From Atopobium sp. oral taxon 810 str. F0209 (lineage in GTDB: Bacteria > Actinomycetota > Coriobacteriia > Coriobacteriales > Atopobiaceae): 64,000 nucleotides of DNA. The notes under the pieces were generated by a model. That model worked only from the letters and a program-made list of their open reading frames with translations. It did no database searches and was not told the DNA's origin. The position numbers and the translations under genes were made by a program. Position 1 is the first letter of the stretch, and every line of letters begins with the position of its first letter. Positions 4,894-20,135 of the stretch are shown here, one piece after another. Location: positions 2,168 to 66,167 of the forward strand of contig NZ_KE952938.1 of NCBI RefSeq assembly GCF_000466405.1, given 5' to 3'.

Positions 4894-4931
4894 CCGACAC
4901 TAGAATCCAATCTAGTGTCGGATCTTTTTTT
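4894..4931 (+). terminator. Rho-independent terminator of lctP
   Basis: An 11-bp perfect stem (4894-4904 with 4911-4921) with a 6-base loop is followed by a run of seven T residues on the plus strand. It lies 34 bp after the lctP stop. The T-run is on the plus side only, so it serves lctP rather than the convergent surface-protein gene. Confidence 0.9.
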
Positions 4932-4951: not shown

Positions 4952-7900
4952 CTAAGGTAGCACCACTTGAGGAGCCTCTCCAGCAGGACAAATATCACTT
5001 ATGCCATCACCGTCTGCATCTACAACCTCAAGTTCTGTCAAAGGTCGCTTCCCTACCGCTGTAGCGTGGTACTGCACAAAACCCTTCCAAGTATCAACCG
5101 TATAAACTTCCCCCTGAAGTCTCACAATATCTTGAGCAGAACCATTTATCGCTCCATCAGCTTGAGCTTCAAAACTAAGGCCTTTACCTGTAGCGATATC
5201 ACTTTTTACTGTAATATGCTCTTTTGCTCCTCCCACCGATAGCATGTCTGCTGGCTTATCTGCACTCAGCAAAACATTATTAGCGCTACCCAGCCAACCA
5301 GCCGCTTTGATGGGCAGCTCGTTATAGGCCATAACCTTGCCCAAACGTTGATTGGTATAGCTAATAGCTGTGGGAATAGAAACCTTCCATACTGCAGGAA
5401 TCCATTTAGCATGTACCGTTTGATCATGCTCAAGGGTCTGCCCAAATTCAAATACCTCATCAAAACTATCCGAACTATACCACCCACCAAATTGCCAACC
5501 AGTCGCTTGAGGAATAGGAGGCTCTTGAGTTTTATCCTCAAATCCCAACGTCTGGGCCTCAATCTGCTTGCCATGACCGTTCATATCAAAATTCAACCGC
5601 GCTGTCTTGCGCACCCAAACTGCATGTAGGTACAAATCACCGTCTGGCATGTACGCATCGCTATCCGCTTTGAGCAGAGCATCCTTGCTAAGGCTACCTT
5701 CCTTTCCAAAAGCCTGCTCAAACTCCGTTTCAGAAAAGGCCTCGTCTTTGGCCTTCGACTCCTCCCAAAGCTGTGCAAAAGGATTGTCAGAGCTTTCCAT
5801 GCGATACCAGCCCTTAAAGCTATAGCCTTTTCTCTGCGCCATAGGAAGCGTTACCACATCGTCCTTATGAAGATCATCTCGCTCAAAATTTCCCGCTTCA
5901 TTAGGCTCACCAAACTTTTCAATCACACCTTGATGCGGCAGATAAGTCAGTTTATGCACACCAGGCGTACGACTGGACTCATATAGACTATTGGTAGAAA
6001 ACGAAGTCCAACCCGTCTGTGCACCTAAATACGACTCACTAAACGCAAAGGCTCCATCCTGCCAAATACTCACAGCACGATTGGCAAAGAAGGGATTGGC
6101 TCCTTCGGGATTAATCGTATCCGTATCAGTTCCTACCTTTATTTTGTTGGGAAATCCTTGGGTGGGATAACAGTGGATGGTGCCATCATCCTGAACCTGA
6201 ATATTCATCGCATTGCCATGCGAGACCACTTGCCCTACAGCTCTTGACCAGTCACGATCGACCAGTTCAATCGCTTTGAGTTTGCTTGTAACCCCATCGG
6301 CAAGTACACGAGTGCTCAGCACCCATTTAGACTCTGAAAACTCCCCTGCATTGGTATCACCTACCGCAATCCTTGGGTAGTTGAGAGATTCTAGGGTAAG
6401 GTACGAGTTGCTAATAGGGATTGTTTCTCCTAGAACACCGTTATCATTCCAATCTGCTGCGGGCAGGTAATTTTGCAACTGCTTCTTTTGGAAGTACGCA
6501 TCGCAAGCAGAACGTATCTGCTCGTCTGATACTTCGTGAACCACAATAGACACATCTATATCGCCTAGATTTATCGCTAAAAAGCCACCACGCAACAAGT
6601 CGGCCACATCAATTAAGGGTTGGCCGTTGTTATAGTTTGCAGCCGCGCCGTTGGATGCATACTCATCAATGCGAGCCGAGCCTGAAATTGTCAGAGTTGC
6701 CCCCACGGGAATAAGTTTGCCATCTTTACGCGTATAAGTACCTACAATAGGAAAATCAAAACCAGCAGTCATGCGCTGACCCTCACGCATGCCTTCAGTC
6801 TCCAGAAGCAAACCTGACTGGCAAACATACTGATTTGCCATTTGAAAAGGAATATAGCTATGGATGGTGTCATTTAAGGCATTTACCGATACTCCTTCGG
6901 TACGAGAATGTTTGTCTTGACGATAACTTTTATAGTGAGGGGCGCCTGTTACCGATAGCAACCGTGGACGCAGGGCACCAGGACCAACGAGCCCATCATT
7001 TGCCAAACAGTCGGCAAGCTCAAAACTATGCGTTAACTCCAAAGCAGTACTATCTGCTGCTCCCAAAGAACCATCTGCATAAAGATGTGCTCTATGCACA
7101 TCACCCGAGTCAAGATCGACAGTTCTCAGTTCAAAGCTATTGCCATCTATCCGCAGTGCTGAATCTTTTGAAATAACTTTGTCGGAGCGTTTAGGTGCGA
7201 GAATAAACTCTCTGGGAGCATCACCTGTTGCGCCAACACGTCCTTCGCCAAGCGCAAATATACGTAGCCGATACTTAAAGCCAGAACCAAGACCCGAAAC
7301 TTTACAGTGGGTATCGCTGGTAGTAGTCAGCGCAAACCAAGCCTCATTAGCAGCAAAAGTATCTTCCCCAGAGCTTTGTGCCCATACCTGATATTCCTTG
7401 GCATAAGGTACCGCATCCCAACTAAGAGTTGCGATTCCCTCAGTTGTAATATCTGTCTTGACCTTATTGTGCGCCAGCTGAGAAGGTACGCGATAAAGAT
7501 GCCATTTCTGAGCAGTAGAGTTATTTGACTTATAAAGCTGGATGTTCGAACCGTTTTCGGTTTTGCCACCTTTAAGATCAAGCACTTTTCCTCCGTAATT
7601 GGAAGTCAGTGTGCTCAAACCCTTTGCATCTGTAGCAATGGTCCACTGAATAGGCAAGGAGGCTAGCTGAACATTTGAATCCTTTACCCTTGCAGTACCC
7701 AAAGCCTTTCCACTCAGCAAACCAACAATTTTGTAGCTTTTGGTCTTTGCATCATAGCTAATCTTCCAGCACTGATTTGCATTAGAAAGAGGCCATTTGC
7801 GATTGGTACGATGGTAAAGCTGTACATTAGTACCCACCGTCGTGTGCCCTCCAGCAGCATCCAAAACAAAAGAATCATCTTTGGCACTCGCAATGACATA

Positions 7901-8083
7901 CACGCCATCTTGGATGTGTTGAGCGGCTTTGACCTCTGGAGCCCAAGCAGCAAAGCCCGCAAGCAACGCAAGGGTGAGCATTGCAACTAACAAAGCGCGT
8001 CCAAGTCTGTACGCAAAAGCTCGCTCGTGCCTATAGAAATCTTGTACATACACACGCACGGAAGTACCTGCTTCACATGTCAT
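4952..8083 (-). CDS. Secreted surface protein: ricin-type trefoil, Fn3, InlB-type repeats
   Basis: A 1043-residue exported protein. A hydrophobic signal segment lies near residues 28-50, followed by AxA-type cleavage choices. Residues about 55-195 form one ricin-type beta-trefoil with three QxW-like units (last one: NIQLYKSNNSTAQKW). A fibronectin-III-like domain spans about 205-300, then comes a long region I do not recognise. Two InlB/Listeria-Bacteroides repeats follow near 730-800 and 828-897 (signatures GYSFKGWY and WQFGGWY, then HAKW). The terminal module begins near residue 898 with VSIPTAISYTNQRLGKV and recurs in the protein encoded at 8522-9439. There is no LPXTG-type tail. It is the last gene of the sortase operon. 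The ATG at 8083 has an AGAGG site 8 bases upstream and is preferred to the overlapping GTG at 8092. An adhesin or wall-binding role is inference. Confidence 0.8.
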   Translation of the reverse strand: MTCEAGTSVRVYVQDFYRHERAFAYRLGRALLVAMLTLALLAGFAAWAPEVKAAQHIQDGVYVIASAKDDSFVLDAAGGHTTVGTNVQLYHRTNRKWPLSNANQCWKISYDAKTKSYKIVGLLSGKALGTARVKDSNVQLASLPIQWTIATDAKGLSTLTSNYGGKVLDLKGGKTENGSNIQLYKSNNSTAQKWHLYRVPSQLAHNKVKTDITTEGIATLSWDAVPYAKEYQVWAQSSGEDTFAANEAWFALTTTSDTHCKVSGLGSGFKYRLRIFALGEGRVGATGDAPREFILAPKRSDKVISKDSALRIDGNSFELRTVDLDSGDVHRAHLYADGSLGAADSTALELTHSFELADCLANDGLVGPGALRPRLLSVTGAPHYKSYRQDKHSRTEGVSVNALNDTIHSYIPFQMANQYVCQSGLLLETEGMREGQRMTAGFDFPIVGTYTRKDGKLIPVGATLTISGSARIDEYASNGAAANYNNGQPLIDVADLLRGGFLAINLGDIDVSIVVHEVSDEQIRSACDAYFQKKQLQNYLPAADWNDNGVLGETIPISNSYLTLESLNYPRIAVGDTNAGEFSESKWVLSTRVLADGVTSKLKAIELVDRDWSRAVGQVVSHGNAMNIQVQDDGTIHCYPTQGFPNKIKVGTDTDTINPEGANPFFANRAVSIWQDGAFAFSESYLGAQTGWTSFSTNSLYESSRTPGVHKLTYLPHQGVIEKFGEPNEAGNFERDDLHKDDVVTLPMAQRKGYSFKGWYRMESSDNPFAQLWEESKAKDEAFSETEFEQAFGKEGSLSKDALLKADSDAYMPDGDLYLHAVWVRKTARLNFDMNGHGKQIEAQTLGFEDKTQEPPIPQATGWQFGGWYSSDSFDEVFEFGQTLEHDQTVHAKWIPAVWKVSIPTAISYTNQRLGKVMAYNELPIKAAGWLGSANNVLLSADKPADMLSVGGAKEHITVKSDIATGKGLSFEAQADGAINGSAQDIVRLQGEVYTVDTWKGFVQYHATAVGKRPLTELEVVDADGDGISDICPAGEAPQVVLP

Positions 8084-8088
8084 TTTGC

Positions 8089-8505
8089 TCACCTCTCTCG
8101 ACTGATCTGTGTTGTAGTTTTACCTGCAAGCAAAGCAGCCCCACCAGCAAGGGCAAAACCCGTAGCCGCAAGGACGTATCCCATAAGGTCAATGCCCGTT
8201 TTGCCATAGCTTGTCTTTTCTTCTGCAGGCTGAGATGGCGGACTATCCTCTACCGAAAGCGATAAATCAATTGCTCCATTGTTGGCAGTACCAGATTCTT
8301 TAGAGCCACTCCACCGGTCGCTTTGCAAGTCGTATGTCTGGTCACCTATCAGCTGTCCGCTTTCTACAGATAGAGCCTCAGTATCTTGGGCAAAACCTAT
8401 CCCAGGGCTTATAGAAACCATCAAAGCAAGAGTCAAAACCACAGCAGCAAACAGGCTTATCACAGGAGGGCTTGACACACTCCCTGCTCTTCTTCTTGCA
8501 ATCAT
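8089..8505 (-). CDS. Small surface protein with atypical sortase-type sorting tail
   Basis: A 138-residue protein with an N-terminal signal peptide (hydrophobic about residues 14-36, cleavage near GFA-QD). A short acidic and serine-rich mature region follows, then a C-terminal arrangement typical of sortase substrates: SYGKTGID, a hydrophobic helix, and a charged end (ISRER). The TG pair in the right place suggests a non-canonical YGKTG-type signal, as no LPXTG is present. The mature region contains YDLQSDRW and TANNGAIDL, which parallel YDSQTKTW and RANDGKVDL in the next gene upstream. It lies 5 bp before the big surface-protein gene and 16 bp after the 8522-9439 gene, in the operon led by the class B sortase. 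Being the sortase substrate is inference. Confidence 0.65.
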   Translation of the reverse strand: MIARRRAGSVSSPPVISLFAAVVLTLALMVSISPGIGFAQDTEALSVESGQLIGDQTYDLQSDRWSGSKESGTANNGAIDLSLSVEDSPPSQPAEEKTSYGKTGIDLMGYVLAATGFALAGGAALLAGKTTTQISRER

Positions 8506-8521
8506 GCGTATCAGCCCCTGC

Positions 8522-9439
8522 CTACTGCGTCACAATATCTTTGAATTCACTGGCAACCTTTGCAGACTGGCCAGCTTCAGCATCCTTGTTCTCGTTCCAA
8601 GCCTCACGCGCAGAGACGATACGATAGCCACTCTCGGGAGCCTCATCGCCTTTCAGGGTTGCAGCATACTCACCTGCTGCCAAAGTTTGCTCACCCATAC
8701 CATTGGGAGACTTCATCGAAGTTGTCTCTTTGATTTCAGAACCACCATCGCGAGGGCCCTGCAAAATTTTGCCTGTCTCTGCCCAGACTTTTACTGCCTT
8801 ACCTGCAGGCAAAGCACCTTGAACATTAATGATGTAGTCATCAGAGGTATCAACTGTGCCAACACGCATACCGCTGTACTTAATGGCAGTAGGTACCGTC
8901 AACAGATACGTACCGTTAGCATGTTCAACACCTCCACCGTCAGGCTTATCGTCACCATCTACGCTGGCACCATCTACCCAAGCACCATCTTTGGTGGAAT
9001 ACAGCAAATCAACTTTGCCGTCATTGGCACGACCCTTGTCCTTGGCAGCACTCCAGGTTTTGGTCTGAGAGTCATAAACCTGATACCCTTCAAGAGCAAA
9101 GTCTGAATCGGGTCCTATCTCACTCCCTTGGCCACTCGTACCTGGAGTCTGTCCACCCTCATTAGCTATTTGAGTTTTGTCATCTACCAGAGCAGAGCGA
9201 TACTGCACCGTTGCAGTCCAATCACCTGCAACATAGACATGACCATTCATCTGAATATTGTCCGTAAAGTCACAGCCATAAGTCACAGGCGCTCGAGTAC
9301 CTTTATGCACAAGCGGCTCACTATTTACTTGCTCGGCCATTGCCACAGCTGGCAGTGAAGACAAAGCACAAGCAATACCTGCGCTTATGACGGCAGCTGT
9401 ACGGGCAGAGTGGAGCAGATGAGCAATATTTATTTGCAT
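8522..9439 (-). CDS. Secreted protein of the sortase operon, no known family
   Basis: A 305-residue exported protein. The signal peptide covers about residues 1-36 and ends in AVAMAEQ. The mature part is rich in Gly, Asp and Lys. Residues about 115-150 carry the YDSQTKTW/ANDGKVDL motif shared with the 8089-8505 product. A module starting LTVPTAIKYSGMRVGTV, near residue 180, matches the C-terminal module of the 4952-8083 product. There is no C-terminal hydrophobic tail, so attachment would be non-covalent or through a partner. The ATG at 9439 is preferred to 9448 because AAAGGA lies 8 bases upstream of it. Function is unknown; a component of a surface complex with its neighbours is inferred from shared modules. 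Confidence 0.7.
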   Translation of the reverse strand: MQINIAHLLHSARTAAVISAGIACALSSLPAVAMAEQVNSEPLVHKGTRAPVTYGCDFTDNIQMNGHVYVAGDWTATVQYRSALVDDKTQIANEGGQTPGTSGQGSEIGPDSDFALEGYQVYDSQTKTWSAAKDKGRANDGKVDLLYSTKDGAWVDGASVDGDDKPDGGGVEHANGTYLLTVPTAIKYSGMRVGTVDTSDDYIINVQGALPAGKAVKVWAETGKILQGPRDGGSEIKETTSMKSPNGMGEQTLAAGEYAATLKGDEAPESGYRIVSAREAWNENKDAEAGQSAKVASEFKDIVTQ

Positions 9440-9534
9440 TTGGGACATCCTTTCTCAGCATGTATATCTTCAAAAACAGCGAAAGAGCTACGGTGAGCGA
9501 GCCCGACAGCAATATCGAAAACCCTTAGACATGA

Positions 9535-10071
9535 CTAGCCCACCTTTACACGGAAGTCCATGGTCATGCCATTTGCTTGTTGTTGAGTCTTGATATGAAA
9601 TGCCGAAAAAACTACCTGGCCTTTGTGCTCCCCTGTAGGAACTTCGCGCTCAAGATCTATCTCATCAAGATGAGTTCCTGGAGCCAGGCTCTGAGGGTTT
9701 TTATCTTTGTGTTTGGCATTCCATACGATTTCGTTGTCAGAAAATTTGCCATCATCATTGCAATCCACGTAGACCACAGGGACCATATCAACAGGATTAC
9801 CCTGGGGATTTGCAAGCAACAACCCCACTCGACTAGCACCAGATTCCCAAAACACATCGGGCACACTCTGAAAACTGGTATATTCCTCAATAACGGCGTG
9901 TGCATCCGCATTTGACTTGTGCAATCCCGTACTGTCACCCACATAATCCACCGCATTAGCAAGGTAGTTTTGCCCTGTAAGGACAAAGGCAACTCCTACC
10001 GCTGCGAGACCAATGCCACATACTCCAAGCGCAATCTGCCATAGTCGTACTCTCTTTTTGATTTGTTTCAT
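9535..10071 (-). CDS. Membrane-anchored extracellular protein with Ca-loop-like motif
   Basis: A 178-residue protein with a basic N-terminus, one membrane segment (about residues 10-33) and an outer domain of mainly beta character. Residues about 103-114 read DCNDDGKFSDNE, which fits the DxNxDGxxxxxE loop of EF-hand/dockerin-type calcium sites. I do not recognise the family. Its start overlaps the sortase stop as ATGA and has AAGGAG upstream, so it is translationally coupled to the sortase. It may assist sortase or hold its substrates at the membrane; this is inference. Confidence 0.7.
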   Translation of the reverse strand: MKQIKKRVRLWQIALGVCGIGLAAVGVAFVLTGQNYLANAVDYVGDSTGLHKSNADAHAVIEEYTSFQSVPDVFWESGASRVGLLLANPQGNPVDMVPVVYVDCNDDGKFSDNEIVWNAKHKDKNPQSLAPGTHLDEIDLEREVPTGEHKGQVVFSAFHIKTQQQANGMTMDFRVKVG

Positions 10072-10835
10072 CTAGTGTCTCCTTCGATGCAATAAATGAT
10101 GGTTCTCTCGTTTGACCAGCTTGTATAACTGCAGGTAACAAGGCTAATTACATGATTTGGAGGGGACGTATTATCAAGCGCAATGTCAGCTTTTAAAAGC
10201 TCGTCTTGATACCAAGCAACAAAATCTTGTTTATCTGAAAATCTGAGCTTTGGACCCTCTGTTGCAGCGTTAACTACCCTCACAAAAGCCGGTCGCAAAC
10301 ACAGTTTTCTTGTAGGGGTCTGTAGCAAAATCTGGCTATGTGCTTTTGCCCATGAAGCATCAAGATACTTACTCAATGGAGCAAACATTGCACCGTCTGG
10401 TGAATGATGTCCATATATCACTGCATTCGGCGCTAATACATTGCCCTTGCAAGCTGCATCAAGGTAGGCACATCCATAAATATTTTTTCTACCTTCTAAA
10501 TCATGTGTAAGATAAAAAAGTGGTTTATCTACATCAGCTGCAACAATAGGTAATGAGATTGGTGTATCAGGCACGCTTAGCCACGCAACAACCTCTGGAT
10601 GCTCGCTATGCAGAGTCTCCCAATCCACTACAGGGAAAATTGGCTCATCCTGCACATCGACCGACTGCTCCGCACTTACTTGTGACCCCGATGCGAGATA
10701 GCGCTGAGCATCATTTGCTGCAAAACGCATAAGTACAAGAGAAACAACTATGCCTGCAGAAAGTCCCAGAGAGCAGATCCCTGTCGAAAGCAAAACTGTC
10801 TTATACCAAGGACGTCTTGTATAACGCCGCAACAT
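10068..10835 (-). CDS. srtB: Class B sortase
   Basis: A membrane-anchored cysteine transpeptidase that cleaves a sorting signal and joins the protein to peptidoglycan or a pilin partner. It has an N-terminal signal anchor (about residues 10-35). The class-B-type segment VVDWETLHSEHPEVVAWL precedes the fold. The catalytic histidine lies in NAVIYGHH. The cysteine and arginine lie in SLVTCSYTSWSNERTIIY. Length (255 residues) fits class B. The frame stays open to 10850 (TTG) with another ATG at 10847; I chose 10835 because a GGGGGTGA stretch just upstream acts as Shine-Dalgarno. It is first in a leftward operon with the four genes down to 4952. The nearest candidate substrate is the 8089-8505 product. 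Confidence 0.9.
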   Translation of the reverse strand: MLRRYTRRPWYKTVLLSTGICSLGLSAGIVVSLVLMRFAANDAQRYLASGSQVSAEQSVDVQDEPIFPVVDWETLHSEHPEVVAWLSVPDTPISLPIVAADVDKPLFYLTHDLEGRKNIYGCAYLDAACKGNVLAPNAVIYGHHSPDGAMFAPLSKYLDASWAKAHSQILLQTPTRKLCLRPAFVRVVNAATEGPKLRFSDKQDFVAWYQDELLKADIALDNTSPPNHVISLVTCSYTSWSNERTIIYCIEGDTR

Positions 10836-11420: not shown

Positions 11421-14036
11421 CTAGTTGAACAGACGAATAATTCCACGAGGAGTACTGTAGCGCCACATACTCCTATTAACGACGCCTTCATCAGGGGCAG
11501 CCTCAATCATACGGTCGTTACCAAGATAGATGGCAATATGGCCTGGCCAGGAAATGAGGTCACCACGCTTACGGCTACCCAGAGATGATATATGCTGGAG
11601 GTCTCCCCTTTCCCAAAAGGCATTAGCATACGCCGCGTGATAGCCACCATTGAGGCCCTTGTAATAGTGGTTATAGGGATTCATCGAACCAAAGTTCATA
11701 CCACAGGCATATGCGCACTGCAGAACCAAGCCTGCACAGTCAACACCAACACCAGGCGCACAGGCATAGTCCCAGATATAAGGAGTTCCCAAATACTCCT
11801 TCGCGCGTTTAATAAAGGCTTCAACGCACTCACTACGCGAAGCAGTCCGCGAAATTCTTGAGGGGCTTGCGTAGTTGAAAGGCCATCCGTAATTACGCCA
11901 TGCACCCCACACTGTATTTGGACTCAGCTGAACCATCCATGAAGGGTTTTGGTAACCGAGCTTATTAGGTGCAGTTTTTACTTGGAAACGCCAACCCTGG
12001 GCAACAGTATTGTTGGAAGTATAGGCATCCACATTGACACCGCTATAATTCTGAGCACCTGCCACATCCAAAACTGTGCCCAACGCAGAGACAATCCGCA
12101 GGCCATACTCGCCCATCTCAAAACGCCATTTCTGAGCAGCAGAGTTATTACCAGTGTACTGCTGCACATTTGCACCACGCGCAGCAGAACCACTCTTGAT
12201 ATCTAGAACCTTGAGACTATTGCAATTGACAAGGGCATACCAACCATTACCAACTGACTTGAGCCACCACAGTTGGCTCACTTGATTATTATCGGTAGCC
12301 ATCACAACATTTGCGGCATTGGCACTGGAGGCGCCTTTTACTGCAAGACGTAGCATCGGGGAGACAGTAGAAGCTATTTCATAAAAGCCCTCATTAGGAG
12401 CAAAGCTTGTTTTGGTAAGCGTCCAACCCTGTGCAGCAGTTAAATTACGGTGATATGTTTGGATATTGGAACTATTAGCAACTTTACCGCCATTCAGATC
12501 AAGCACCTTGCCATCAAGAGCAGATCGGAATTCAAAACCATTACCTAAAGTTGCGCCAACAACCCATTCACGTAGTACACCAGCTTGACGACCCTGCTGA
12601 GCATTGCTCTTTTGTACCACAACATACTCGCCAGAATTGATATTCTGCAGAGTGACATTACCATTGGTAAGCGTGCGAATATACCATTTTTGAGCTGCAG
12701 TTTTATTAGAACGATACAGCTGAATATTAGTGCCTGTATTCCAAGAACCACCTACCACATCGAGCACATAGCTAGCATTTTTTGCAGTGGAAATAACATA
12801 GGCACCTTCAGCTACCTTTGGGCGATACGCATCAACAATAAAGCTGGTAGCGTCTGCCGTGCGTTGACTTACAAGCTTACCATCCACAAATGCAAGTGCT
12901 AAATCATCACGAGTGGCAGAAACAAGTTTCCAGCCTCCTTCAGAGGGCACTAGCGCCCACTTCTGGGAGATACTATCGCTAGCCTGCTGCTGACGTATTG
13001 CGCCTCCAGGTAAAATATCACCTAGGTCTAACTGTACTGCCTTAGCTGAGCCCGCATTGAGTAGCTGGTAATAACCTGTCTTTACGTCACGCTTCAGATA
13101 AAACGCCTGAGCAACCGTGTTGTTACTCTGATACGCTTGTAGCTGTCTGCCGTTATCTTTGCTTGCGCCAGGAACATCTACAGCCTTATTACCGCTCTTA
13201 AAGGTGTAAAACTCTTCGTTGAGCTTTTCGCTTTTTGCTGGCGCTTTTCCTACTAGAGAAGTAAAACTGAAACGCTGAGCGACAGTTTCATTAGAACGGT
13301 AAAGCTGCAAATTTGTTTTTGGTGTAGTCTTGCCGCCGCTCAAATCTGCAACAAAGCCATTGCCCAAAGCAGACCAGAGCGAAAAGGTGTCATCCTCGTT
13401 TTTGATAATTGCCCACAGTTGCGACAAACTACCGTCGTAACTCTTCTGATAAATATTTGCGCTATTAGCGGCTTTATCACCATCAACCGTCAGCACCTTA
13501 TTGCTACCGATATTCGTTAGTGTACGCCACTGATGTCCGTCACGTTCCACCGTTGCCACACGCCAAGACTGAGCCGCTGTGTGATTGTGATCCCAAAGTC
13601 TAACGTTAGCCTTCTCTTTTTTTGAGCCACCCTCAACATCCAAAACACCACGAATACGAGAAGAAGAAATTACGTAGTCGCCATCAGCTAGGCCTGGCAC
13701 CAACTCATCAATTCCGTCTTCAACTTCCTCAGCAGGCGTGTCTGCAACTGTCCCTGTCGTAGGTGTGCTCGTACTACTAGTATGTTCTACAGGACTAAGT
13801 GCTAACTCTTTTTCCTCGGGAAAAACTGTGTTCGTCTGTTTTTCGGCATCTGTTTCTTCATTAACGCTTACGGGCAACTCACGACTAGCGGTTGCTGGCT
13901 GTTCGATTGAACTTGGCTGCTCTGAAACGGTCGCATCCTCTGCAAGTGCCAGTTGAGGTGCAAGTATACCTAATGAAAGACTTAACACTGCACCTGTAGC
14001 TGCAAGAGCTAAATGACCCGTAAGCTTGTTTTGCAT
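11421..14036 (-). CDS. Secreted ricin-repeat protein with NlpC/P60 endopeptidase domain
   Basis: An 871-residue exported peptidoglycan hydrolase. It has a signal peptide (residues 1-32, ending ALA-ED) and a Ser/Thr/Glu-rich linker to about residue 115. Four consecutive ricin-type beta-trefoils follow (about 12 repeat units, such as NIQLYRSNKTAAQKW and NVQQYTGNNSAAQKW). A C-terminal NlpC/P60 domain covers about 735-871. The catalytic cysteine is in VDCAGL (C767) and the histidine in WPGHIAIY (H833). NlpC/P60 domains usually cut the D-Glu-diamino acid bond of stem peptides. The trefoils probably bind wall carbohydrate. It is second in a leftward operon, 30 bp after the 14067-16655 gene, with AGGAG before the ATG. 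Some trefoil units lack the QxW core, so binding sites may be partly lost. Confidence 0.9.
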   Translation of the reverse strand: MQNKLTGHLALAATGAVLSLSLGILAPQLALAEDATVSEQPSSIEQPATASRELPVSVNEETDAEKQTNTVFPEEKELALSPVEHTSSTSTPTTGTVADTPAEEVEDGIDELVPGLADGDYVISSSRIRGVLDVEGGSKKEKANVRLWDHNHTAAQSWRVATVERDGHQWRTLTNIGSNKVLTVDGDKAANSANIYQKSYDGSLSQLWAIIKNEDDTFSLWSALGNGFVADLSGGKTTPKTNLQLYRSNETVAQRFSFTSLVGKAPAKSEKLNEEFYTFKSGNKAVDVPGASKDNGRQLQAYQSNNTVAQAFYLKRDVKTGYYQLLNAGSAKAVQLDLGDILPGGAIRQQQASDSISQKWALVPSEGGWKLVSATRDDLALAFVDGKLVSQRTADATSFIVDAYRPKVAEGAYVISTAKNASYVLDVVGGSWNTGTNIQLYRSNKTAAQKWYIRTLTNGNVTLQNINSGEYVVVQKSNAQQGRQAGVLREWVVGATLGNGFEFRSALDGKVLDLNGGKVANSSNIQTYHRNLTAAQGWTLTKTSFAPNEGFYEIASTVSPMLRLAVKGASSANAANVVMATDNNQVSQLWWLKSVGNGWYALVNCNSLKVLDIKSGSAARGANVQQYTGNNSAAQKWRFEMGEYGLRIVSALGTVLDVAGAQNYSGVNVDAYTSNNTVAQGWRFQVKTAPNKLGYQNPSWMVQLSPNTVWGAWRNYGWPFNYASPSRISRTASRSECVEAFIKRAKEYLGTPYIWDYACAPGVGVDCAGLVLQCAYACGMNFGSMNPYNHYYKGLNGGYHAAYANAFWERGDLQHISSLGSRKRGDLISWPGHIAIYLGNDRMIEAAPDEGVVNRSMWRYSTPRGIIRLFN

Positions 14037-14066
14037 ATCCCATCTCCTAAAAGTGCTAGCACAAAT

Positions 14067-16655
14067 TTATACACGCATTGACCTAGACGTCGGTCTTAAT
14101 ACTACATCCCACCACTGATCTTTCCATCCCCCCATTGAACTGTAGTACGCCAAAGGACGAGTACAAATCTCATAACCTGTCTGGTCACCAGGTTTACCAC
14201 CCGTAATACCACCCCACTCATTTTGATGAGCGGCAACTTCGGTAGTATTCGAAACGATTCCTGCAGTATGGCTCAAATCGGAAAGCAGGACATCTCCCGC
14301 TTGAAGATCTCGCACATCACTAATGTAGAGTACTTGCCAACCGCGACTTTTTAGATTGGAACGCATGTCCCCCGTCCAACAAGCACTACCTGTTTTAAAA
14401 CCAGCAGCCATCAGACTAGAAATTACCAATGAAGAGCAATCATAATCACCACGCTCACCCCAGCGATAAGCTTGGTCATACCCATGCTTATCATCTTCTG
14501 CCATGGCTACCATATACTGAGAAAACTGCTCAATAGCAGCACCTACACCTTTCGCTTTACTCTTGCGAAGCAACCAACCCTGTGCCACCGTTCCATTATT
14601 TTGATCCTGTTGGACGTTCGTCCCTGATAACAGCTGACCCGCTGCGATATCTAGCACCTTACCCGAGCCATTCACAAAGGTAAAACCAGTATCACCAAAG
14701 ACAATCTGCCATTTTTGTCCCAGTACATTATTTGTTGTGTATTGGGCAACGTTAGCCCTATTAGACTGAACAGAACCCTTAACACCAAGAGCTTTGTTTG
14801 AGTTCGCAGATACAATACGGTACCAATTACCCCCTAGAGAACTAATATGCCATGTCTGCGCAGCGGTGCTATTTGCTTTGTATATTTGAACATTAGCACC
14901 ATCATTTCCCGAAGCACCACTCACATCTAAAGCTAAATCGCCGTTACCCGCTGCACGAATTTCATACCAACCCTCGCCATCAAAAACTCGGGTACCCTCA
15001 AAAATCCAAAGCTGTGTATCAGACCCATTCTGCTGCTTCAGCTCTATATTTGCTGTGTTTTTAGCAACACCACCTGCAATATTGAGAACCGCACCCAAAG
15101 CACTTTGGAGTCTAAACCCACCACACGAACCCAAGTCTCCCAAACCAAAAGTAAGTGACCAATAGCTTGCTTTATCCGCCGTTGCCTGCATTACATTGTG
15201 ACCATCATGTGAGAGGTACAAACCAGAGCCGATATTTCTAAGCTGCCATCCAACTGAATCTTGTTTGAGTTGCCACCTCTGTCCATATCCCCCATTCCAA
15301 GAATACGATTGAACATTGGCGCCAACTTTTGTGCTGCCACCACTCACATCAAGCACTTGGGAAGAATTGCTAACACTATTAATACGATAAAAGCCTTGGG
15401 TGATACTTGGATTCCACTTGGACAAACCCCAAAGCTGGGCAGATGATTGAGCTGCAACGTCTGCAGTTTGTAGTACCGAGCCTGAATCTGCAAGAGCATG
15501 ACGAGTCTTTGCATTAACAAAATAATAGCTACCAGCACCATCGGATACTAACTCCCACAGCTGATAGAGATTATTCTTTTGACTCATCTGCTGTGCCAAC
15601 ATAGTGCCCGCGACAATATCCGCTGCAGAAGCGCTAACAGAAAGGCCCGACTTGTCATTACGAATACGCCAATACTTACCTTCACGAGAAAGATAAAAAC
15701 CCTGAGCCATCGTATTGTTCTTGCGGTATAGCTGAACTTTTGCACCAGCCTTGTTAGAGGCTCCAGCTATATCAACCGCAAGAGAACTTGAACGAGAAGT
15801 GAATGTATACGACCCTGCTTCAGGCTGCACACCTGCATTTCCCGCAGAATGTAAAGACTCTGTTGGGTCACTCACACCAGCAAAGCCCGCAAGGACATCT
15901 ACCAGATTCCAAATCTGTGCATTTGTCCCATTAGATTTATAAATCTGAAGATTAGTACCGTTTGTACTACGAGCGCCACTGACATCAAGTACAAAGTTAC
16001 CCACCAAAGCAGAACGCAGACGCGCTTGACCTTTTTGCTCATTCACCCAATCAACATACCAGCGCTGTGCCGCAGTACCGTTTTGTACATATTGCTGCAC
16101 ATTGGTGCCATTTGCCGCTTTTGCACCAGTGACATCCAATACGAGTCCACTCTGCTTGTTTTTGATAACGTAACCATCTTTATCGGCTTGGAAGCTCCAC
16201 TCCTGAGCACCTGTACCATTTGCCTCGTAAAGCTGTACATTAGCGCCTTTTTTCTTGGAGCCACCCTTTACATCTACAGAACCACGGCCAGCAACGGCAG
16301 ATTCAATAACAAAAGAATGGTCTTTCAAAGGAACTTCTGCAGAAGGATCCTCGTTTTCAATGGCATTAGAAGACATCGTAGTGGTCTCAAGTCTTGTTTT
16401 TGTAGCATCTATTAGCTGATTAGACTTGGCTTGGTTGGTAGTATGTTCTAGTTGGACTACTGACTGGCTTGGGTCTTCTTCAGAATCCAAATCATAGTTC
16501 AGACCTGCAGAAACGGCTTCTTCAGATACAGACGGTGTCAAGGTATTATCATCACTAACCTCAGCGTAAGCAAAGGTGGGCACACTCAAGACTAAAGCAG
16601 ATCCCAAAACAAGCACTAGCGGTATTTGCTTCATTTGTAAACGATTGACGTACAT
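14067..16655 (-). CDS. Secreted ricin-repeat protein with Amidase_5/NlpC-like domain
   Basis: An 862-residue exported protein. The signal peptide ends near AYA-EV (about residue 32), followed by an acidic linker. Four ricin-type trefoils follow with about 12 units (for example NVQQYVQNGTAAQRW and NVQIYKANSTAAQTW). A C-terminal cysteine-peptidase-like domain spans about 702-862. GDYDCSSLVISSLMAAGF gives C740 as nucleophile and DLSHTAGIV gives H796 as base. The YDCSS and TGDM spacing resembles the phage-type Amidase_5 branch of the NlpC/P60 superfamily more than standard NlpC. The start has AGGAG 7 bases upstream. It heads a leftward operon and is divergent from the GH25 gene. Bond specificity (amidase or endopeptidase) cannot be read from sequence. 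Confidence 0.85.
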   Translation of the reverse strand: MYVNRLQMKQIPLVLVLGSALVLSVPTFAYAEVSDDNTLTPSVSEEAVSAGLNYDLDSEEDPSQSVVQLEHTTNQAKSNQLIDATKTRLETTTMSSNAIENEDPSAEVPLKDHSFVIESAVAGRGSVDVKGGSKKKGANVQLYEANGTGAQEWSFQADKDGYVIKNKQSGLVLDVTGAKAANGTNVQQYVQNGTAAQRWYVDWVNEQKGQARLRSALVGNFVLDVSGARSTNGTNLQIYKSNGTNAQIWNLVDVLAGFAGVSDPTESLHSAGNAGVQPEAGSYTFTSRSSSLAVDIAGASNKAGAKVQLYRKNNTMAQGFYLSREGKYWRIRNDKSGLSVSASAADIVAGTMLAQQMSQKNNLYQLWELVSDGAGSYYFVNAKTRHALADSGSVLQTADVAAQSSAQLWGLSKWNPSITQGFYRINSVSNSSQVLDVSGGSTKVGANVQSYSWNGGYGQRWQLKQDSVGWQLRNIGSGLYLSHDGHNVMQATADKASYWSLTFGLGDLGSCGGFRLQSALGAVLNIAGGVAKNTANIELKQQNGSDTQLWIFEGTRVFDGEGWYEIRAAGNGDLALDVSGASGNDGANVQIYKANSTAAQTWHISSLGGNWYRIVSANSNKALGVKGSVQSNRANVAQYTTNNVLGQKWQIVFGDTGFTFVNGSGKVLDIAAGQLLSGTNVQQDQNNGTVAQGWLLRKSKAKGVGAAIEQFSQYMVAMAEDDKHGYDQAYRWGERGDYDCSSLVISSLMAAGFKTGSACWTGDMRSNLKSRGWQVLYISDVRDLQAGDVLLSDLSHTAGIVSNTTEVAAHQNEWGGITGGKPGDQTGYEICTRPLAYYSSMGGWKDQWWDVVLRPTSRSMRV

Positions 16656-16727
16656 TTGCGTCTCCTATACCTGTTTTACAGGGAAAACATACTTATGATA
16701 TATCCTAACTTGCATTCGACCGAAAAT

Positions 16728-16750
16728 GCTTATGACTAAATTACATAAGC
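16728..16750. promoter_or_regulatory. Inverted repeat between divergent hydrolase genes
   Basis: GCTTATG and CATAAGC are perfect 7-bp arms separated by 9 bases. The site is centred in the 174-bp gap between the leftward Amidase_5-like gene (start 16655) and the rightward GH25 gene (start 16830). Such a position suits an operator controlling both directions. No regulator gene is adjacent. Confidence 0.4.
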
Positions 16751-16829
16751 TGGACTTGGGATTGCCTACATAAAGTAGTTCATTTTGTCGGTTTTGATTT
16801 GCCTTATTCCAAAGCGAAGGGAAAAAGCG

Positions 16830-19800
16830 ATGGCTAATAAATCTACGCCACATACCAAATGTTTTTTCTTCCGTAAACGTCATGCTATTGCAGCTATGGC
16901 AGTTGCGCTTCCCCTGTTAGCAACTCCTGGCATAGCCTTTGCTCTAGATGAAACACCTAGCAGCGAAGTTGTACCTACAGCAATTGAAGAAACCACAACA
17001 AATCCCACCAATAGTAACGCTTCTAATCTACTTATTTCTATTCCTGTTTCCGAGGAAAACAACACTCAATCATCTCTCCCTACAAATAATGAAACAGTTA
17101 CCGAAGCGGAAGTGCTACAAGATGAGACTACGGCCGCACATGAAGTCCCAAAAAACGAACTAATAAGCTCAACTGATGAAGTCACAAAATCCACTCCTAC
17201 TGAACTATCTTCAGTTGACACCGAAACAAACTTCATGCATAAGGCAGTGGATACAGATACTCCCGCTGAAGTCACCGATGGTCTCTATGAAATTGCAACT
17301 TTTACCGATCCTAACAAAGTAGTGGACGTACGTGGCGGCTCTCGAAATAATGGCGCTGCGGTACAGACCTATCGCTCTAATGGAACTGGTGCACAAGTGT
17401 GGCGTGTCACGCAATTAGGAGGCGGTCTTTACACCCTACAAAATCTTCGGTCGGGAAAATACCTTGATATTCCTGCTGCAAAAGCAGTCGAAGGTGCCCA
17501 AGTTCAACAATATACTGAAAATTCCACTAAAGCGCAGCAATGGGAAATCGTCCCCGATGAAGGTCGCAAAGGCTACTTTGTACTTCGCGCTTACCTAAAT
17601 GGCAACCTCGTACTCGATACAAAAGAAGGAATTCTAAAACTAGGATTCGCAGATGGTGATGCTACACAGGCTTTTTCTTTCGAGAGGATAGTAGCCGCTG
17701 TAAGTGATGGTCTTTATGAAATTAACAATGTTAATGCCCAGAAACCTATTGAAATCCCTGGTGGCAGCAACAAAAATGGCGCACCTGTTGCCATCTATGC
17801 TTCCAATAATTCAGCAAGTCAACGCTGGCGTATCCAACTGGCAGGTAAAGATAGCTATACCATCCAAAACGTACGATCGGGCAAATTCCTTTCTGCAAAT
17901 ACTAGTAAAGGAAAGCTTAGCCGTATTATTTCCCAGCGTGATGCTAGCTATGCCTCAGACCAAATTTGGAAACTCAGCCCTGTTGATGGCAGCGGCATAT
18001 TTACCGTAGTATCAGCGCTAGATTCTAATATGGTATTAGATGTCACTGCTGCAAAAACCACAAACGGCACTAAGCTCCAGCTCTACAAAAGCAACGGCAC
18101 CCTTGCTCAATATTTTTCATTCTCACAAATCAATCAAAATATTGCAGATGGTGTCTATGAACTCAAAAACCTCAAATCGCATCTTGCGCTCGAGGTAAAT
18201 TCTGGCTCTATCACTCGTGGAGAGAATATCCAGCAGGGCAATAAAAAGACCGATGGATCGCAGTACTTTTACGTTCGCTACAATCACGGCAACGGCTATT
18301 ACACCTTTACCAATGTAAAAAGTGGTAAGTGTCTGGAAGTAAAGGACGCTTCAAACTCACAAGGTGCCAATATTCAACAAGGCGATGTCGCTAATAGCTA
18401 TGCTCAACAATGGACCATCCGTGAAGATAATGGTCTATACGGAATTTATTCCGCAATAGGAGGACTGGCACTTGACGTAAGTGGAGGTTCAACTGCCAGT
18501 GGTGCAAACGTACGGGTCTGGACTTCAAATGCTAGCGGTGCACAACGCTGGACATTTAAGCATGTAGACCAGTGGCTTAACAATGGTACCTACAAAATTA
18601 TTGCTACAAATAACAATGGCAATGTTTTGGCTGTCGTTGACGGTAGTCACAATAACAGCACCGCTATCACAACCCGTAAGGTACAAAAAGCTAATAATTA
18701 CCAAAAGTGGCAACTAAGTTGGGATGGAAACTTTATCAAGCTCATTAATGTTGCCACCGGTAAAGCACTTGATATTCGTTCTGGTAAGACTACTAACGGT
18801 ACCATTATTCAACAGTTCCGCAGCAACAATAGCAATGCGCAACGTTGGCTACCTGTAATGACGGAATCAGGAATTATGCTGCAATCTGCCCTTGATGCAC
18901 ATGTTGTTGTGGATATCGCAGGTGGTAGTAAATCTGCTGGAGCAAAAATCCAAACATATACCAACAATAATTCCTTAGCTCAACGCTTTTTATTTGTAAA
19001 TTCAGCTCTACTTGAAAATGGAACTATTTACACCATTTATGTTGACCCTGAAAACACTCTCGCCAAGTCCAATCAAGTAATGGATGTTCAAGGTGCTTCA
19101 AAAGTAAGCGGCACACGTGTACAGATTTACACTACTAACAAAACCGCTGCACAACAGTTTGAACTAATCTCTGTTGGTGAGGACAGCTATCGCCTGCAGA
19201 ACGTCAATTCTAAATTGTTTATCACTGCAAATGCTTCTGGCACAATCACCCAAACTGCAGCAAATAATTCCAGCACTGTATGGCTTCCTCGCTGGGATGA
19301 TACAACCGATTCAATTGTTTTGATGTCTTCTAGCCAACTAAAGGCAATCACAGCAGTCAACGGTAGACTTAACCTAACAAATTGGTCAGAAAACAACTCT
19401 ACCCAAGGTTTTCTTTTTACTAATATCCCACAACAAAAGCGTCTTCATGGCATTGATATCTTTAGCGGTGATGGAGATGCTGGCATTAATATCGCACGCA
19501 TACCCGCAGATTTCATCATCGTAAAAGCAACACAGGGTACTGATTACACCAATCGCTACTTCCGCAAGCACGCCGATGAAACCCTTGCCGCTGGCAAGTT
19601 ACTTGGTCTTTACCATTTTGTAGACACAACAAAGGGAGCCATTAATGAGGCACGCTACTTTGTTGATACTATTAAGGGCAAGGCTGGGGAAACCAACTAT
19701 ATCGGCAAAGCGGTGCTATTCCTTGACTGGGAAAACAATGATGTTACAGGTCAAAACAACATCAGCAAGGGTCCAAAATATGCAAAGGCATTCCTTGATG

Positions 19801-20135
19801 AAGTAAAGCGCTTGACTGGTGGTGTAAAGCCTCTTATTTATATGAGCAAAAGCGTTACTGGCAGTAGCTATAACTGGCAGAGCGTTGCCGACGCAGGTTA
19901 TGGTCTTTGGATGGCTCAGTACCTCTATAAATACTATGATAATGATGTAAAAGGTCACGTAGATAATCCCACCCTCATTTACAACGATGCCGAAGATGGC
20001 CAACGCGAGTGGAGCAAACCTACCCTCTATCAGTACACCTCAAAAGGAAAGCTTCCAAACTATAGTAAATATCTGGATATGAATGTCTTTTATGGCAACG
20101 CTGCAGACTGGAACGGTTTGGCAGCAAGGCATTAA
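16830..20135 (+). CDS. Secreted ricin-repeat protein with GH25 muramidase domain
   Basis: A 1101-residue exported lysozyme-type hydrolase. A basic N-terminus leads to a signal peptide ending AFA-LD (about residue 38), then a Glu/Thr/Ser-rich linker. Five ricin-type trefoils follow (about 15 units, such as VQTYRSNGTGAQVW and VRVWTSNASGAQRW). The C-terminal glycoside hydrolase 25 domain covers about 870-1101. HGIDIFS holds the first active-site aspartate, and LFLDWEN gives the DxE pair (D966, E968). GH25 enzymes cut the MurNAc-GlcNAc bond. The frame is open to a TTG at 16785, but the ATG at 16830 follows AAGGG and starts a proper signal peptide. It is monocistronic, divergent from the Amidase_5-like operon, and ends at a strong terminator. 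Confidence 0.92.
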   Translation: MANKSTPHTKCFFFRKRHAIAAMAVALPLLATPGIAFALDETPSSEVVPTAIEETTTNPTNSNASNLLISIPVSEENNTQSSLPTNNETVTEAEVLQDETTAAHEVPKNELISSTDEVTKSTPTELSSVDTETNFMHKAVDTDTPAEVTDGLYEIATFTDPNKVVDVRGGSRNNGAAVQTYRSNGTGAQVWRVTQLGGGLYTLQNLRSGKYLDIPAAKAVEGAQVQQYTENSTKAQQWEIVPDEGRKGYFVLRAYLNGNLVLDTKEGILKLGFADGDATQAFSFERIVAAVSDGLYEINNVNAQKPIEIPGGSNKNGAPVAIYASNNSASQRWRIQLAGKDSYTIQNVRSGKFLSANTSKGKLSRIISQRDASYASDQIWKLSPVDGSGIFTVVSALDSNMVLDVTAAKTTNGTKLQLYKSNGTLAQYFSFSQINQNIADGVYELKNLKSHLALEVNSGSITRGENIQQGNKKTDGSQYFYVRYNHGNGYYTFTNVKSGKCLEVKDASNSQGANIQQGDVANSYAQQWTIREDNGLYGIYSAIGGLALDVSGGSTASGANVRVWTSNASGAQRWTFKHVDQWLNNGTYKIIATNNNGNVLAVVDGSHNNSTAITTRKVQKANNYQKWQLSWDGNFIKLINVATGKALDIRSGKTTNGTIIQQFRSNNSNAQRWLPVMTESGIMLQSALDAHVVVDIAGGSKSAGAKIQTYTNNNSLAQRFLFVNSALLENGTIYTIYVDPENTLAKSNQVMDVQGASKVSGTRVQIYTTNKTAAQQFELISVGEDSYRLQNVNSKLFITANASGTITQTAANNSSTVWLPRWDDTTDSIVLMSSSQLKAITAVNGRLNLTNWSENNSTQGFLFTNIPQQKRLHGIDIFSGDGDAGINIARIPADFIIVKATQGTDYTNRYFRKHADETLAAGKLLGLYHFVDTTKGAINEARYFVDTIKGKAGETNYIGKAVLFLDWENNDVTGQNNISKGPKYAKAFLDEVKRLTGGVKPLIYMSKSVTGSSYNWQSVADAGYGLWMAQYLYKYYDNDVKGHVDNPTLIYNDAEDGQREWSKPTLYQYTSKGKLPNYSKYLDMNVFYGNAADWNGLAARH

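Follow-up and report, generated by a model that had tools for sequence, protein, structure and literature searches.

A class B sortase operon of Atopobium sp. oral taxon 810 with a proline-free candidate sorting signal

Class B sortases of the SrtB/IsdC type act on signals such as NPQTN in Staphylococcus aureus, NPKTG in Bacillus anthracis, and NAKTN or NPKSS in Listeria monocytogenes. The Listeria motif NAKTN (Mariscotti and colleagues 2009, as cited in PMC5026354) is a precedent for a residue other than proline at position 2, so a class B sortase can tolerate such a signal. Here we describe a five-gene operon on the minus strand (10835-4952) of a 64-kb stretch of the genome of Atopobium sp. 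oral taxon 810 str. F0209 (contig NZ_KE952938.1, positions 2,168 to 66,167; referred to below as the window), in which a predicted class B sortase is encoded together with a protein of 138 amino acids (aa) whose C-terminal tail carries YGKTG. The source genome comprises 1.95 Mb in 38 contigs.

The IsdC/SrtB system resembles this operon in having a class B enzyme encoded beside one dedicated substrate, and in the K-T(-G/N) of its signal. However, the window signal begins with an aromatic residue and not with Asn, the unit has no NEAT or heme proteins, and its substrate is a short stub beside large, unanchored partners. SrtB of Clostridioides difficile likewise serves adhesion-type surface proteins through a KTG signal, but there the signal contains proline (PPKTG in CD0386; PMC11987632). 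In the streptococcal SrtB/AbpA pair (LPKTxSAVK-type; PMC4974636; NF040525), too, a small adhesin bears a distinct signal at its C-terminus and has a class B sortase dedicated to it, although the signals differ and the window sortase scores only 36 bits against the NF040525 cut-off of 200. The same clade and signal type are found in Coriobacteriia, where class B sortases lie beside SpaA/TQ-ester/thioester adhesins with YDKTG; in those cases the giant adhesin itself is tailed, whereas in the window only the 138-aa stub is.

The YGKTG tail and its neighbouring sortase

The 138-aa protein consists of a signal peptide, a short module (module A) and a tail in which SYGKTG is followed by a hydrophobic span and KTTTQISRER, and this arrangement of signal peptide, pentapeptide, hydrophobic span and charged C-terminus fits the layout of a sorting signal. 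It is the only one of the five operon products with such a tail, as the preliminary description of this DNA, made from the sequence alone, had already seen. No LPXTG or NPQTN-type pentapeptide is present in the protein, YGKTG standing in its place, and the protein is not listed among the matches of the Pfam model Gram_pos_anchor.

The neighbouring sortase had been assigned to class B in the same description, and this assignment held. Residues H148, C240 (in a TC pair) and R249, in the numbering of a 260-aa open reading frame (ORF), are invariant across 17 aligned sequences. The Pfam Sortase family is matched at 1.3e-6, and the best NCBIfam model is that for class B sortase (TIGR03064, E 3.6e-23). 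Its score of 82 bits lies below the curated cut-off of 154, so by sequence the enzyme is taken to be a diverged member or subgroup of class B and not a TIGR03064 equivalog. A clade profile searched against the PDB retrieved sortase B chains of B. anthracis, C. difficile, S. aureus and others (E 5e-33 to 1e-23), and these relatives, along with the catalytic residues, support predicted class B membership.

Copies of the operon were found in three other genomes. Olegusella massiliensis, the nearest congener to carry it, has the same five genes in the same order and an identical YGKTG, the 138-aa protein being 84% identical and the sortase, 178-aa and 305-aa proteins 89–93%. G459, from another family, has genes for the sortase and the 178-, 305- and 138-type proteins in the same order, and the tail of the small protein reads DGAYARTG followed by a hydrophobic span; a matching large protein starts right at the edge of a separate contig and presumably adjoins the unit. 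The conservation of the operon in these two genomes argues that it is more than a chance arrangement. In the third, from another family of the order (G315), the four remaining genes lie together with no sortase beside them (there are two sortase matches elsewhere in that genome, neither beside the unit), and LPRTG stands at the position of YGKTG when the small proteins are aligned. Identities to the G459 and G315 orthologues are 50–53% for the 305-aa protein, and 47% and 50%, respectively, for the 178-aa protein. In shuffling tests of module A among the small proteins, the window-G315 and window-G459 pairs beat 1000 of 1000 shuffles, and the G315-G459 pair 998 of 1000.

A chance origin of YGKTG was ruled out by the aligned LPRTG and YARTG of the orthologues. 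We have little doubt that YGKTG would act as a sorting signal, and covalent anchoring of the 138-aa protein is very likely. Since the sortase-less copy has LPRTG and the sortase-bearing copies have YGKTG or YARTG, the sorting motif and the dedicated sortase appear to switch together. The remaining sorting signals of the source genome are LPQTG-type alongside a few LPKTG/LPRTG variants, and a single further sortase is encoded, adjoining purE/purM; for these reasons YGKTG is best read as the putative cognate signal of the sortase encoded near it.

Relatives of the sortase were gathered from 398 genomes of the class and the GTDB contig collection. In the resulting tree, the window sortase pairs with that of G459 as its sister (support 96/91) within a clade of 30 sequences (97/97). 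As scored, the neighbouring genes of this clade encode proline-free KTG/RTG signals in 22 cases, LDQTG in two, proline-type signals in three and none in three, while none of the 11 sequences outside the clade has a proline-free neighbour, the readable ones being only LPKTG or VPKTG. Re-reading found FFGKTG upstream of one sortase scored as having none (L085) and YAKAG upstream of one scored as proline-type (L038). The tails beside related sortases include YDKTG, FDKTG, YAKTG, HDKTG, LDKTG, LAKTG, FGKTG and YGKTG, and the clade signal can be written as mostly [Y/F]-[D/G/A]-[K/R]-T-G, judging from these genes. The window sortase shows both features proposed for a [Y/F]x[K/R]TG clade, position within it and a proline-free signal in a neighbouring gene. 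A search for YGKTG tails next to class B sortases of related genomes, proposed in the preliminary description, gave a positive result: genes with a YGKTG tail lie immediately upstream of sortases of the clade in Pseudoflavonifractor An85 (L083, Bacillota), in an Eggerthellaceae metagenome-assembled genome (MAG; L092) and in a further MAG (L089). The motif is therefore atypical by comparison with LPXTG, as had been said, but it is one form of a clade-wide proline-free signal and not an oddity of this locus. Mapped on the tree, the tail-type label requires nine changes against 13.8 in shuffles (2 of 500 reached so low a count), and the tail types are thus clustered, though not of single origin.

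Six large substrates of the clade were scanned, and most are giant adhesins bearing SpaA, TQ-ester and thioester domains, one having Flg_new repeats only. The window unit, with a short stub and unanchored partners in place of a giant adhesin, is unusual in this company. No paper pairing YDKTG with a sortase was found, which is weak evidence as most subscription journals lay outside the search, and the same literature yielded no clade whose signals start with an aromatic residue and lack proline at position 2. Several YDKTG/YAKTG adhesin-sortase pairs (L037, L042, L048, L049 and L055) lie near ParA-like, NlpC/P60-type and conjugation-like genes, and because of these neighbours the sortase-signal pair may travel on integrative elements. 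One cluster in a Coriobacteriia MAG (L054, 1-3914) brings together LPITG/LPQTG pilin-like proteins, a class B sortase and two further proteins resembling sortases; it also holds a subtilisin-like protein whose frame leaves the locus at SYGKT.

Layout of the operon and its other products

Coordinates are collected in Table 1. The five-gene leftward operon of the preliminary description is present in full on the minus strand. The longest ORF for the sortase begins at a TTG (10850) and gives 260 aa, and the 305-aa protein is started at 9439 in place of the listed 9448 on the basis of a better-spaced ATG and the O. massiliensis start. Terminator-like hairpins, identified as consensus matches only, flank the operon upstream (11028-11013, minus strand) and downstream (4894-4921). 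A sigma-70 promoter scan returned fewer sites than shuffled sequence, and its result was not used.

Table 1. Features of the sortase operon in the window
Feature	Position	Strand	Evidence
Class B sortase	10068..10835	-	255 aa from ATG 10835; Pfam Sortase, class B model, invariant H/C/R, PDB relatives
178-aa protein	9535..10071	-	ATGA overlap with sortase; orthologues in O. massiliensis, G459, G315
305-aa secreted protein	8522..9439	-	Orthologue identity, strand position, 305-family profile
138-aa small anchored protein (predicted)	8089..8505	-	Module A in common with 305-aa protein; G315 LPRTG and G459 YARTG homologues
Sorting tail (putative): SYGKTG, hydrophobic span, KTTTQISRER	8089..8211	-	Same column as G315 LPRTG; YGKTG/FGKTG/YDKTG tails beside related sortases
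1043-aa secreted protein	4952..8083	-	ATG 8083; Pfam; 305-family profile on C-terminal domain

The 178-aa protein has an N-terminal membrane segment and an extracellular domain. Both features claimed for it earlier are real: its start and the sortase stop form a true ATGA overlap, and it carries an EF-hand-like loop, DCNDDGKFSDNE, at residues 103-114. This loop is the sole match to an EF-hand-type pattern among about 20,000 window residues, and it is kept in all four orthologues and absent from a relative in G034. That relative belongs to a two-gene version of the 178/305 pair in the same genus (L164, 8280-10366), formed by a 399-aa membrane protein and a 272-aa VPTAI-domain protein with neither sortase, anchor nor EF-hand loop. 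Pfam and NCBIfam assign no family to the 305-, 138- or 178-aa proteins, and a PDB sequence search with the 178 family gave nothing meaningful.

By Pfam and profile matches, the 1043-aa protein contains a ricin-B lectin domain, a weak fn3 match, a middle region of about 450 aa, two Flg_new repeats and a C-terminal VPTAI domain, and it bears no anchor. Among the 398 genomes of the class, the middle region (5888-7240, residues about 282-732) has a homologue only in O. massiliensis. It is possible, though rather less than an even prospect, that the ricin-B domain binds a carbohydrate or glycoprotein. Pfam found no ricin domain in either the G315 or the G459 large protein (the latter starting at a contig edge), and the ligand-binding part therefore seems to vary among the large proteins while the assembly part, the Flg_new repeats and VPTAI domain, is kept. 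Near the C-terminus (about 4976-5035) a loop, DADGDGISD, is similar to the repeats with which other surface proteins bind calcium, and it is kept in O. massiliensis.

Ricin-type repeats recur beyond the operon, where three adjoining secreted proteins (11421-20135) combine many of them with cell-wall hydrolases: NlpC/P60 (11421-14036), an Amidase_5/endolysin-like domain (14067-16655) and, on the other strand, a GH25 muramidase (16785-20135). In O. massiliensis (L005), a 116-aa DUF3467-like protein is encoded twice and the terminal part of the NlpC/P60 gene is likewise present in duplicate (12374-13240 and 15579-16400), with a gene for a 632-aa membrane protein between the copies.

Shared modules and retention of the unanchored proteins

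Modules shared between the products, also claimed in the preliminary description, were recovered by sequence comparison. Module A is common to the 305- and 138-aa proteins (36 residues, 47%, E about 1e-7 in a five-sequence search), and the 305-family profile (alignment A2) matches the 1043-aa protein in its C-terminal domain (E 2e-8) and also finds the equivalent domains of the G315 and G459 large proteins.

If it acts like characterised sortases, the operon enzyme would cut the 138-aa protein within YGKTG, between T and G, and join it to peptidoglycan. The 178-aa protein would remain in the membrane, and the 305- and 1043-aa proteins would be exported with no covalent anchor and stay on the cell surface by contacting the 138-aa anchor, the 178-aa protein or both through their common beta modules; calcium, bound at the EF-hand-type loop of the 178-aa protein, perhaps stabilises this retention. 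The 1043-aa lectin/repeat protein would be the likely outward, ligand-binding part. On balance we favour the idea that the whole is a self-contained cell-wall display unit with one small sortase-anchored protein and retained partners, while the chances that the 138- and 178-aa proteins would hold the 305- and 1043-aa proteins non-covalently appear evenly divided. The preliminary description had suggested a dedicated surface complex: its dedicated sortase and YGKTG signal are strongly supported by the comparison of genomes, and the holding of partners is consistent with gene content, since the large protein is unanchored and the small protein tailed in every copy whose end is readable.

Several points weigh against a display unit of this kind. 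The signal gene sits three genes downstream of srtB in the window, whereas most substrates in the clade are directly upstream. Shared modules alone do not show binding, and the small proteins are short and diverged, so that homology of module A rests on the shuffles and on gene position. The AlphaFold2 models, built from two-sequence alignments, have a mean predicted local distance difference test (pLDDT) score of 28 for the 305-aa protein and 44 for the 178-aa protein, and are uninformative.

The alternative that survives best concerns the topology of the 305-aa protein. The VPTAI domain ends in a strand with the motif LxGxxxxAGxWxGxxxYxxxLV, which is C-terminal in standalone relatives (G034, G252 and G294) and in the large proteins. 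The 305-aa protein, in contrast, has a signal peptide, a segment resembling this last strand, module A, and then a VPTAI domain minus its C-terminal strand, and all four unit proteins of this type have the motif before module A and lack it at the C-terminus. A profile of eight C-terminal segments, chosen by eye before the profile was built and searched together with 10,000 shuffled decoys, recovered the N-terminal ones of G315 (1.4e-6), G459 (5e-4) and the window (0.01). Because the best decoy scores as well as the window segment (and O. massiliensis is weaker still), the case for an N-terminal strand rests on G315, G459 and the four-orthologue alignment. A protein of this design would be either circularly permuted or strand-donating between molecules. 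If the latter, it could polymerise or dock by donating its N-terminal strand to the strand-less VPTAI domain of a neighbour, in the manner of TasA and of chaperone-usher subunits, with the 138-aa protein fixing the filament or complex to the wall; donation from an N-terminal segment would be a possible parallel to the TasA/TapA fibres of Bacillus (PMC9674648, PMC10151520), donor-strand exchange being known for TasA (PMC9674648), although no sequence relation to the 305-aa family was found. Circular permutation within one molecule accounts for the same facts, the window signal is no better than a shuffled decoy, and the model of the 305-aa protein is poor, so strand exchange is improbable; an assembly of this type rooted by the stub through the proline-free signal of a dedicated SrtB clade, with the lectin protein as its cap, is equally so. 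No solved structure matches the 305-aa family in a PDB sequence search.

A split domain, in which module A of the 138-aa protein completes the IPTAI domain of the 1043-aa protein, was also considered. It was weakened by VPTAI domains that occur elsewhere without module A (the first such domain of the G459 large protein and a 465-aa protein of G294), and by the last domain of the G459 large protein, which has a module A of its own.

The 138-aa protein might instead be anchored by the housekeeping sortase, as the genome has this second enzyme beside purE/purM, but LPQTG-type tails are found on its other anchored proteins, and from genome to genome the motif goes with the dedicated sortase; this route is quite unlikely, and the neighbouring SrtB very probably uses YGKTG. 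Comparably unlikely is a covalent pilus in which the sortase polymerises subunits by isopeptide bonds. A class B sortase does take part in pilus assembly in Streptococcus pyogenes (PMC3019223), and the substrates of many sortases in the clade are adhesins with SpaA, TQ and thioester domains, but Pfam finds no SpaA, TQ, Cna-type or isopeptide-domain pilin in the unit, and the signal is borne by one small protein only and not by the 305-aa protein. Least probable is that the tail, whose hydrophobic span and charged end would also hold the protein in the membrane, is a membrane anchor only and that the sortase acts on other proteins, given LPRTG and YARTG at the same place in orthologues and YGKTG tails beside related sortases.

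Implications for surface proteins of Coriobacteriia

If cleavage at YGKTG is true, the enzyme could serve as a ligation tool orthogonal to LPXTG sortases. The G315, G459 and Olegusella copies amount to a natural experiment, the sorting motif differing according to whether the sortase is present. The predictable proline-free signal of the clade escapes scans for LPXTG or NPQTN, and in gut and vaginal Coriobacteriia many surface proteins may consequently go unrecognised as wall proteins.

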